Of a DNA stretch of 64,000 bases, positions 5,501 through 7,691 are shown one piece after another. Both the position numbers and the translations under genes were made by a program. The notes beneath the pieces are model-generated. The model was not told the DNA's origin. It worked only from the letters and a program-made list of their open reading frames with translations, and searched no databases. This DNA is from Paludisphaera rhizosphaerae. Lineage in GTDB: Bacteria; Planctomycetota; Planctomycetia; Isosphaerales; Isosphaeraceae. How positions within the stretch are numbered: the stretch's first letter is position 1; every line of letters starts with the position of its first letter. Where the stretch lies: assembly GCF_011065895.1 (NCBI RefSeq), contig NZ_JAALCR010000003.1, positions 186,001 to 250,000 of the forward strand, read 5' to 3'.

Positions 5501-5679
5501 CCCGCCAGAACAGCCCGGCCGCGAACATGAACGCCCAATCGATCGTCATCCATCCCCTGCACCGCCCCGGCGCTCCGGGGATCGACTCGACGCCCGCCGC
5601 GCCGACGGCCTCGGCCGCAGCCTCGGCCGTCGACACGACCGTAACTCGCCCAGCACGCCTTGAGGAGAGCGGCCAGTGA
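2542..5679 (+). CDS. membrane-anchored five-heme cytochrome c with C-terminal TPR repeats
   Basis: 1045 residues from ATG 2542, preceded by GGGAG. The frame is open 31 codons further upstream, but that part looks non-coding. Five hydrophobic helices fill residues about 27-178, resembling a DUF-type cytochrome b/NapC-like anchor. Five covalent heme c motifs follow: CLQCH at 230, CAGCH at 280, CTTCH at 313, CSTCH at 379 and CAECH at 430, with extra His residues that could serve as distal ligands. This is the cytochrome c554-like family. Residues about 480-690 form a beta-rich region, and residues 715-900 hold tetratricopeptide repeats (AEPIFRKVAELG..., EALEALEKAA). The protein should be exported, with the heme domain outside the cytoplasmic membrane. 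It is followed without a gap by an FG-GAP/UnbV protein, a recurrent planctomycete pairing. Its electron donor and acceptor are unknown. Confidence 0.88.
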   Translation: MSTPTATPRDRAGRAYVPAIGTKLRPLLWVILIAFAALAANGFYMASVTALTWYTGSTQQTYFYFLMAILHVIVGLLLIVPFVAFGAAHLVTSWKRPNKAAVNFGLALLAAGIVVLVSGLMLVRIGVFEIRDPRIRNVGYWAHIFAPVFAVALYVKHRLAGPRIRWEWARRLAIPVVGFAAIMGMLHFQDPRTFGERGPKSGKQYFYPSEAVTANGKFIPAETLMMDRYCLQCHKDAYEGWFHSSHRLSSFNNKAYMTSVRETRRVSMERDGTTQAARWCAGCHDPVPFFSGKFDDRDYDDVNDPTAHAGITCTTCHAINNINNTRGNAAYTIEEPQHYPFAFSEDPVLQWVNAALVKAKPEMHKKTFLKPIIRSAEFCSTCHKVGLPFALNEYKDFVRGQDHYTSYHLSGVSGHGARSFYYPPVAKTNCAECHMELKDSNDFGARDFARQGGRQIHNHMFAAANTGLATIQDDETANKAAEKYLTEKKVRIDLFALREGGEIDGAFLGPIRPEIPTLKPGGKYLVETVVRTLGVGHPLTQGTVDSNEIWVELIARDGDRIVGRSGGIGEDGTVDPYSHFINVYMLDRHGNRIDRRNPQDIFVPLYNKQIPPGAGQVVHFGLEVPSGTRGPITLEARVNYRKFDRTYMDFIFGKGGGPKLPVVLMAKDAVKLPIEGGPEVKNEPSPIAEVWQRWNDYGIGLLLEGSDKGGQKGELKQAEPIFRKVAELGKADGWVNLARVYQREGRIPEALEALEKAASHKEPAAPWTINWLTGEINARNGLLDEAVANFESVLNTRIPERKFDFSTDFFVINELAQASYGRSRIEPVDSPERKTWLKKAITAYHRTIKIEAEDVAAHYGLSLAFGDPAWGEKPPEPEAPKAAVDPESLAKQIPGVLDATAPSATRKERALKLADDVSRYVKGPRPKYQSRLEPLYEVTDGLAKPWEQAADPEVQAAIGRVLEVAHRALHERLKPDETAEGRAFAIARQNSPAANMNAQSIVIHPLHRPGAPGIDSTPAAPTASAAASAVDTTVTRPARLEESGQ

Positions 5680-7691
5680 GAGTCTGTCTCGAAAGCGTAC
5701 GCGAAGCCCGGACGACGGCCTTCCCCCCTGGAGGGGGAAGGTGGCCCGAAGGGCCGGATGAGGGGGACGACCGGCGTTGGACGCGCATCCGGCGGCTCTT
5801 TCTCTACCCCACGCCGATCTCCCCCTCATCTGACCGCTTCGCGGTCTGTCTTCCCCCTCCAGGGGGGAAGACGTCGGAAGGCCCGACGTTCGACTTTTCG
5901 AGGCAGTCGCCGACCGCGCGCGGAGCATCGCTCCTCGTGATCTTCGGCCTCTTCCTCCTGGGTGGCGGCTGCACCAAGGCTCCCGAGCCCTCGGTCGTCG
6001 CCGCGCCGGTGGCGCCGACCCGCCCCAAGACCGTGGCCCCCGCGACCTTGCCGAAGGTCAGGTTCACGGACGTCACGACTGAGTCGGGCGTCGCCTTCAC
6101 CCACTTCAACGGAGCCCAGGGCGAAAAGCTTCTCCCCGAGACGATGGGCTCCGGCGTCGCCTTCCTTGACTACGACGGCGACGGCGACCCCGACCTCCTG
6201 TTCGTCAACTCCGCCCCCTGGCCCGGCGCTCCCGTCCCAGATCCGGCCCCAACCCAGCACCTCTACCGCAATGACGGCCAGGGGAAGTTCACGGACGTGA
6301 CCAAGGAGGCCGGGCTCGACAAGACGTTCTACGGCCAGGGCGTCGCCGTGGGAGACTACGACAACGACGGCGACCCCGACGTCTTCATCACGGCTGTCGG
6401 CCGCGCCTACCTTTTCCGCAACGACTCCGGCAAGTTCACCGACGTCAGCGAAGCCGCCAACGCCAAGGGGCCCAACGCCTGGCTCACCGGCGCGGCGTTC
6501 CTCGACATCGAGAACGACGGCGACCTCGACCTGTTCGTCTGCAGCTACATCACCTGGACGCCGGAGATCGACAAAGTCCAGGGCTTCCAGTTGACCGGCC
6601 TCGGCCGGGCCTACGGGCCGCCGACCTCCTTCAACGGGTCGCTCTGCGTCCTCCTTCGAAACGACGGCGGACGATTCACAGATATCAGCGAGGAGTCCGG
6701 CGTCCAGGTCCGCACGCCCGACCTGAAGGTCCCGCTAGGCAAGTCCCTGGGCGTGGCCCCCTACGACGTCGACGGCGACGGCCTCGTCGATGTCGCCGTG
6801 GCCAACGACACGGTGCAGAACTTCCTGTTCCACAACAAGGGGGGAGGCAAGTTCGAGGAGAAGGCGATCCTGTCAGGCGTGGCCTTCGACATGAACGGCT
6901 CGGCGCGGGGCGGCATGGGCTGCGACTGGGCGAACTTCCTGAACGACGAACGGCTGGGACTGGCGATCGGCAATTTCGCCAACGAGATGACCGCCCTGTA
7001 CGTCAGCGACAAACCCTCGATGCTGGTCTTCTCCGACGTGGCCAACCTCTACGGCCTGGGCGCGCCGACGCAACCGCCGCTCAAGTTCGGCCTCTTCTTC
7101 TTTGACTACGACAACGACGGCCGGCTCGATTTGCTCTCGGCCAACGGCCACCTGGAGCCGGACATCGCCCGAGTCCAGGCCAGCGAGCACTACGAGCAGT
7201 CGGCGCAACTGTTGTGGAACTCCGGCCGCCCGGGTCCGAACCTGTACGTCAACGTCGACGCCTCCACCGCCGGTCCCGACCTCTTCAAGCCGATCGTCGG
7301 TCGCGGCAGCGCCTACGCCGACATCGACGGCGACGGCGACCTCGACGTCGTCCTGACCGCCAACAACGGCCCCGCACGACTGCTGCGCAACGACGGCGGC
7401 AACGCCAACCGCTGGATCCGCCTGGCTCTGACCGGCGACGGCAAGACCTCGAACCGCGACGCCATCGGCGCCAAGGTCGAAGCGAAGGTCGGCGGCCTGA
7501 CCTGCCGTCGTCAGAACTTCCCGGCCAAGAGTTACCTCTCCTCGATGGATCCCGTCCTTACCCTGGGCATGGGCCAGGCTGAGAAGGTGGATAGTCTGTC
7601 GATCACCTGGCCTTCAGGCAAAGTAACGCGATTGGAGAACCTGGAGGCGGGCCGGCTGTATCATGTTGACGAGGTTTCCGGCCTGCGCTGA
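5676..7691 (+). CDS. CRTAC1-like FG-GAP/VCBS repeat protein with C-terminal ASPIC/UnbV domain
   Basis: The frame opens at GTG 5676, overlapping the cytochrome stop by 4 bases. Repeated Asp-rich calcium-binding blades (DYDGDGDPDLLFVN, DYDNDGDPDVFIT, DIENDGDLDLFVC, DVDGDGLVDVAVAN, DIDGDGDLDVVLTAN) make a beta-propeller. The C-terminus NRDAIGAKVEAKVGG ... LSITWPSGKVTRLENL is the ASPIC/UnbV domain. The start is odd. A lipoprotein signal (SLLVIFGLFLLGGGC, Cys at residue 99) is preceded by about 75 residues encoded by a dispersed hairpin repeat (5715-5872). No ATG, GTG or TTG lies between 5676 and GTG 5937, which would leave a signal with no positive charge. The repeat has therefore either become coding or displaced the original start. 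The product is expected to be a surface lipoprotein working with the preceding cytochrome. Confidence 0.85.
   Translation: MRVCLESVREARTTAFPPGGGRWPEGPDEGDDRRWTRIRRLFLYPTPISPSSDRFAVCLPPPGGKTSEGPTFDFSRQSPTARGASLLVIFGLFLLGGGCTKAPEPSVVAAPVAPTRPKTVAPATLPKVRFTDVTTESGVAFTHFNGAQGEKLLPETMGSGVAFLDYDGDGDPDLLFVNSAPWPGAPVPDPAPTQHLYRNDGQGKFTDVTKEAGLDKTFYGQGVAVGDYDNDGDPDVFITAVGRAYLFRNDSGKFTDVSEAANAKGPNAWLTGAAFLDIENDGDLDLFVCSYITWTPEIDKVQGFQLTGLGRAYGPPTSFNGSLCVLLRNDGGRFTDISEESGVQVRTPDLKVPLGKSLGVAPYDVDGDGLVDVAVANDTVQNFLFHNKGGGKFEEKAILSGVAFDMNGSARGGMGCDWANFLNDERLGLAIGNFANEMTALYVSDKPSMLVFSDVANLYGLGAPTQPPLKFGLFFFDYDNDGRLDLLSANGHLEPDIARVQASEHYEQSAQLLWNSGRPGPNLYVNVDASTAGPDLFKPIVGRGSAYADIDGDGDLDVVLTANNGPARLLRNDGGNANRWIRLALTGDGKTSNRDAIGAKVEAKVGGLTCRRQNFPAKSYLSSMDPVLTLGMGQAEKVDSLSITWPSGKVTRLENLEAGRLYHVDEVSGLR
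5715..5872 (+). repeat. dispersed multi-hairpin repeat, copy 1
   Basis: A 158-bp element matching 26868-27024. In order it has: a hairpin CTTCCCCCCT/GGGGGAAG, a hairpin GGCCCGAAGGGCC, a left arm GATGAGGGGG (5757-5766), a 53-bp interior (5767-5819), a right arm CCCCCTCATC (5821-5830), a hairpin GACCGC-TTC-GCGGTC, and a closing hairpin CTTCCCCCTCC/AGGGGGGAAG. Flanks are almost identical in the two copies and in the same orientation, but the interior matches only as its reverse complement. This copy is inside the 5' part of the CRTAC1-like frame. Confidence 0.9.

Follow-up and report, generated by a model that had tools for sequence, protein, structure and literature searches.

In Paludisphaera rhizosphaerae, a gene encoding a CRTAC1-like lipoprotein contains, in frame and immediately after its start codon, a dispersed palindromic repeat of about 237 nt. 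The gene lies in a stretch of 64,000 nt (positions 186,001 to 250,000 of contig NZ_JAALCR010000003.1), here called the window; what is directly observed is the insertion itself, a family of such repeats, an uninterrupted frame and sister genes lacking the element. We consider it fairly probable, judging from the sequence, that a MITE-like palindrome inserted in frame at this site and was tolerated as the extension it encodes would be removed with the signal peptide, leaving the mature lipoprotein unchanged.

The lipoprotein gene spans 5676–7691 on the forward strand (GTG start, 671 codons; open reading frame, Pfam and orthologues). Its 671-residue product carries FG-GAP repeats and a C-terminal UnbV_ASPIC domain, both above the Pfam cut-offs, and these together with the lipobox cysteine identify it as a CRTAC1-like FG-GAP/ASPIC lipoprotein. 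A gene that is cytochrome c/TPR-like by sequence is located directly upstream (2449–5679, forward strand, from the ORF list), and its TGA stop codon (5677–5679) overlaps the GTG start at 5676 by four bases (GTGA), a gene order and overlap found also in the sister genomes. A Shine-Dalgarno-like sequence, GAGGAGAG, is found 6 nt 5' of this GTG (5662–5669, forward strand), and is conserved in the same-genus orthologues L010, L011 and L012. Further downstream on the same strand, translation and hydropathy place the hydrophobic core of the signal peptide, LLVIFGLFLL, at 5931–5960, followed by the lipobox LGGGC at 5958–5972. As claimed in a preliminary description of this DNA, the frame from GTG 5676 passes through the repeat, being open to 7691, and translation puts the lipobox cysteine at residue 99; this cysteine is invariant in 12 aligned orthologues. 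The sole other in-frame start codon is a GTG at 5937–5939 (residue 88, forward strand), which leaves 11 residues ahead of the cysteine. In a structure model based on 12 sequences (mean pLDDT 69), residues 1–116 have pLDDT below 50 and are predicted to be disordered, and much of the propeller is confident.

Comparison of the copies within the genome delimits a conserved core of the element at 5715–5874 on the forward strand, which contains the perfectly complementary 21-nt arms of an inverted repeat (left arm 5720–5740, right arm 5850–5870). The repeat region folds far more stably than shuffled sequences (z -7.6). Outside the core, 5682–5708 pairs with 5880–5908 (23 pairs in the copy of the lipoprotein gene), and the whole element is thus one long hairpin. 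Copies in a sister species, G002, match the element at 83% over 97 nt, beginning immediately behind the start codon; TGAGAGTCTGTCCCGGAAG is one of the ends seen among them. Furthermore, a search of the genome for the end pattern TGAGAGTCTGTCCCG with at most one mismatch gave five matches, one of them at window position 5677, and the reversed control gave none. From the sister-species copies at the left end and from the outer stem, the complete element, with its imperfect terminal inverted repeats, is placed at 5677–5913 on the forward strand (about 237 nt, equal to 79 codons, with an uncertainty of about 10 nt at the right end), and so reaches from the start codon to just ahead of the hydrophobic signal core. 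The repeat previously placed at 5715–5872 is therefore real, but those limits cover the core only. Over 301 nt including the element, the predicted RNA fold has a free energy of -174 kcal/mol (z -6.3), and the stable hairpin begins about 6 nt after the start codon. When the 237-nt segment was shuffled preserving dinucleotides, 32% of the shuffles stayed open in the lipoprotein frame, so the open frame is weak evidence alone and was rejected as a proof of translation.

At least 41 copies of the element are present in the genome, that of the lipoprotein gene included, a lower bound since 40 of 317 candidates were scored; the others are 82–93% identical to it at the DNA level. Related copies were found in all six genomes of the genus examined. 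Column conservation across copies is about 96% in the arms and 69% in the centre, and the copy in the lipoprotein gene differs from the majority consensus at nine of 165 columns, all of them central, its arms matching fully. Most of the other copies have degenerate outer ends, and the enrichment of these ends over shuffles is modest. A second copy within the window (26867–27025, forward strand) is located between the convergent genes 25596–26825 (forward) and 27059–29164 (reverse). A possible 9-bp target-site duplication, CCCCTGCAT, was seen by eye at one copy (L052), and the other copies inspected had none. A search for a parent transposase or insertion sequence with the same ends returned none; the end pattern occurs at few places, and the nine inspected were short elements only. 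In Rfam, the only matches were far below the curated thresholds, mostly to hairpin miRNA models, and were taken as chance.

Some further observations concern the ends and relatives of the element. Outer ends of the form TGAGAGTCTGTCYCG (L253; also L255, L256, L258 and L259) bound elements with unrelated cores, ranging from about 65 nt in G003 to about 184 nt on contig 62 of P. rhizosphaerae, as if one set of ends carried different hairpins. One full-length copy in G002 (L239) has CCACGGGTT and AACCCGTGG on either side, which gives the impression that it inserted into the loop of an existing hairpin. A half-element motif, GGNGAAGGTGGCNCGNAGNGCCGGATGAGGG, has matches (L079–L158) among which those listed come from Rhizobiales, Xanthomonadales, Oscillospiraceae, Butyrivibrio, Chthonomonas and Planctomycetes, including Paludisphaera soli and Planctomycetales bacterium 71-10; being common to several phyla, it suggests that related palindromes are widespread.

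Several other copies are open in frame within long open reading frames. Four of the hosts have Pfam support: a UvrA paralogue (L040), a Ser/Thr kinase (L045), a protein with acyltransferase and FabA-like domains (L055) and a propeller/cytochrome protein (L069). In L045 there are two copies in tandem (1201–1525), which separate two parts of the kinase domain. The remaining two are an FHA-like protein (L053) and a membrane protein (L072). A segment of about 74 residues in L069, and one of about 60 in L072, is cleanly absent from the sister genes. In L069 the gap reaches about 10 residues beyond the core on either side, and is thus independent support for an element larger than the core. L040 is a weaker case of insertion, as its sisters vary in length at this place, and for L045 no clear one-to-one orthologue was found among the matches. 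Most of the remaining copies appear, by codon signal, to be intergenic. The possibility that the element is adapted to coding was rejected: of the 6 frames, 2.60 are open in its cores, compared with 3.54 in shuffles, which indicates a family that is tolerated in genes.

Orthologues of the lipoprotein were found in 50 of 59 relatives. The three same-genus orthologues (L010, L011 and L012) follow the same upstream gene and are 83–86% identical in amino acid sequence over the body. All three lack the element, and have the same Shine-Dalgarno sequence and stop/start overlap; their lipobox cysteine is at residue 33, 33 and 30, respectively, against 99 in the element-bearing gene. This supports the earlier proposal that an element inserted with the frame preserved, creating an N-terminal extension, and answers the comparison with repeat-free relatives that it had called for. 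The alternative then offered, a disabled original start, is not supported, as GTG 5676 is at the position of the sisters' start, with the same ribosome-binding sequence and the same four-base overlap. On this sequence comparison the insertion added about 66 codons to the n-region of the predicted signal peptide, and the original GTG start was retained. The net difference in leader length is 66–69 codons, less than the 79 codons of the element; some of the old codons have therefore probably been lost, unless the old leader was shorter. In most of the 28 orthologues whose 5' ends could be read, a candidate start exists from which the cysteine is residue 17–35. The genes that carry repeats (the element-bearing gene, and L019 and L028 described below) stand apart from this range. 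Long leaders are possible also where no palindrome was detected (L022, cysteine at residue 59 from the first start; L035, residue 46).

Two more distant orthologues have palindromes of their own in the same region, unrelated to the P. rhizosphaerae element. That of G033 (L019) has in its 5' region a different palindrome, CCTCTCCCCGCAGACGGGGAG, which is dispersed in the G033 genome. At the end of this palindrome is an ATG, 44 residues ahead of the lipobox cysteine and preceded by purine-rich sequence that is plausible as a Shine-Dalgarno sequence; depending on the start, the cysteine is at residue 44 or 102. Translation may thus restart behind the repeat, with the palindrome apparently providing a new start region. 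The orthologue in G029 (L028, cysteine at residue 47) carries in its n-region a third palindrome, a short one that reads SSPLPPGEGRKR in the protein and has dozens of matches. In G009 (L016) a further palindrome, with a perfect 14-nt arm GGCTTGAGCCTGGC, is found between the upstream gene and the lipoprotein gene. The matched bodies of complete orthologues are similar in length (at most 580 residues, against 572), and a comparable insertion within the body is therefore lacking. For insertions spread uniformly along about 600 codons, the chance that all three fall within the first 30 would be about 1 in 8000, a rough figure for a pattern noticed post hoc. Gene edges may simply tolerate insertions better. 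We tentatively raise the possibility that signal-peptide n-regions are a recurrent landing site of palindromic mobile repeats in this planctomycete family, on the strength of one gene, three unrelated repeat families and three genera. Insertions there that keep the frame would cost little, because signal peptidase removes the peptide they encode.

The sequence of events that we favour can be outlined as follows. A palindromic MITE-like element, non-autonomous and about 237 nt long, would have inserted directly 3' of the lipoprotein start codon, its length and frame keeping the gene open, so that the original GTG, the Shine-Dalgarno sequence and the coupling to the upstream gene would still drive translation. 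Translation coupled to the upstream gene would start at GTG 5676 and read through the element. The product would have a 98-residue leader. About 79 residues of it, a probably disordered n-region, would be encoded by the element, and behind these would come the hydrophobic core and lipobox of the old leader. Lipidation followed by signal peptidase II cleavage is the established route for lipoproteins, and such cleavage before Cys 99, provided that the protein is exported, would remove all element-encoded residues. The mature lipoprotein would then be unchanged and the insertion presumably neutral, which would explain both tolerance and recurrence. In support of this, the hydrophobic core and lipobox are intact in the element-bearing gene. 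Counting against it are the leader itself, as 98 residues are unusual for a lipoprotein, the open frame that is compatible with chance (0.32), the 22 unique residues of this lineage described below, and the failure to find a clear target-site duplication or a parent transposase. The very stable hairpin about 6 nt after the start may also lower translation. Peptides mapping only downstream of residue 90, earlier regarded as a refutation, would be uninformative, since cleavage yields a lipoprotein beginning at Cys 99 whether the extension is present or not.

Reduced or lost expression caused by the hairpin is the main rival. According to this the insertion crippled the gene, either because the hairpin blocks translation or because the long leader fails in export, and the gene would be a recent proto-pseudogene with a body that has not yet decayed. 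The hairpin adjoining the start is consistent with this speculation, as are the apparently recent element copy, with arms fully matching the consensus, and the number of lineage-specific residues, 22 against 8–11 in the sisters. That excess is partly due to a synonymous branch that is longer as well. The gene body, however, has no stop or frameshift in 671 codons, and its dN/dS against L010–L012 is 0.18–0.22, similar to that of sister pairs. These ratios and the counts of unique residues settle nothing about events after the insertion. Furthermore, several other genes keep the element in frame, and a dead gene would need no frame. We regard a crippled gene as unlikely, though it deserves to be taken seriously.

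Less likely still, the element could be an untranslated leader RNA, with translation starting at GTG 5937 or at a non-standard start behind it. A GGAG is present upstream of GTG 5937, in G033 an ATG with a plausible Shine-Dalgarno sequence comes after the repeat, and it has been cautioned that many N-terminal repeats reflect misannotated starts (PMC3733652). This warning is answered in part by the sister comparison, since the sister start aligns with GTG 5676. A start at 5937 would yield MIFGLFLLGGGC, with 11 residues to the cysteine and an n-region free of positive charge, whereas repeat-free orthologues mostly have the cysteine at residue 17–35. The preliminary description had stated that no other start gives a functional signal peptide; GTG 5937 is an in-frame alternative, but one with a short n-region free of positive charge. 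Co-option of the extension, for instance in slowing export or in the sensing of conditions via the hairpin, is very improbable. The strong hairpin at the start and the recurrence of palindromes at the same site in G033 and G029 could be read in this way, and the long signal sequences of autotransporters (PMC2805444) indicate that long N-terminal leaders can occur. The repeats of the relatives are unrelated, which argues for tolerance and not for a shared function, and an element that is open in fewer frames than shuffles is not adapted to coding. Misjoining of a repeat copy into the gene is conceivable in a draft genome (8.05 Mb, 110 contigs) with a repetitive element, but can practically be dismissed, as the gene is well inside a 401-kb contig, the unique flanks continue in frame, 237 nt is far too short to break an assembly of such kind, and the centre of this copy differs from every other copy.

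The lipoprotein gene, with its element-free sister species, is a clear case in which a mobile palindrome rewrites the 5' end of a predicted exported protein while the start codon is kept. If this proves general, signal-peptide n-regions would be permissive insertion sites, the start codons of some lipoproteins would be misannotated around repeats, and signal peptidase II would be able to process leaders of about 100 residues.

In the literature on the phylum Planctomycetes we found no description of coding palindromes, and the element is best compared with repeats from other bacteria. MITEs are 70–300 bp long, lack coding capacity for a transposase, and have terminal inverted repeats of 15–30 bp, a target-site duplication and an autonomous parent with the same ends. 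The present element, at about 237 nt and with no transposase ORF, is of this kind in size, and its terminal inverted repeats are represented by the 23-pair outer stem in the lipoprotein-gene copy, with a left end common to the G002 copies; in most other copies the ends are degenerate. It resembles the bacterial MITEs NEMIS, ERIC and Nezha in size range, terminal inverted repeats, absence of a transposase gene and high copy number; it differs from them in the degenerate outer ends of most copies and in that no parent insertion sequence was found, and its one candidate target-site duplication is that at L052.

GTAG/CGTC REPs occur within genes in several bacteria, including in uvrA (Di Nocera et al. 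2013, PMC3733652), and are likewise dispersed palindromes, many of them in pairs of opposite orientation (PMC3733652). The present element is larger, has neither a GTAG tag nor an adjoining RAYT, and its stem lacks the initial A-T pairs. The CGTC REPs have an 8–9 bp stem that almost always starts with two A-T pairs, and CGTC at one end (PMC3733652); assignment to this class was rejected, as the stem CTTCCCCC/GGGGGAAG starts with C-G and, although ACGTC follows the right arm, the stem rule fails. A GTAG or RAYT-associated REP was rejected as well, with no GTAG at the element ends and no RAYT flanked by the element, and so was mobilisation by a RAYT, as the single Y1 transposase gene of the genome is flanked by other repeats. 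This RAYT-like gene is preceded by several copies of the repeat GGAAATTCGGTGTCAGTTCTATTTCC (L078, about 1230–1460).

The enterobacterial RU repeats are MITE-like, 103–168 bp long and fused in frame to genes, one of them within a predicted signal peptide (Delihas 2007, PMC2759123). The likeness is that of a MITE-like repeat in frame in a gene (PMC2759123). Sequence and host are different, the P. rhizosphaerae insertion is defined by element-free sister genes, and the element precedes the old hydrophobic core, whereas the RU forms the signal. The first in-frame palindromes described were the Rickettsia palindromic elements (RPEs; Ogata et al. 2000, as summarised in PMC10969869 and PMC3733652). 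RPEs are palindromic, of similar size, in frame within unrelated protein genes, used in several reading frames and also intergenic. A palindrome in frame within a protein gene is likewise found in the lipoprotein gene, L069 and L072, where sister genes lack the segment. Our element belongs to another phylum, has fewer open frames than shuffles and is sited at a signal peptide; its likeness to RPEs concerns structure and placement in genes. In-frame palindromic insertion is thus already known from RPEs, intragenic REPs and RUs, and the unusual part is its recurrence at one signal-peptide site.
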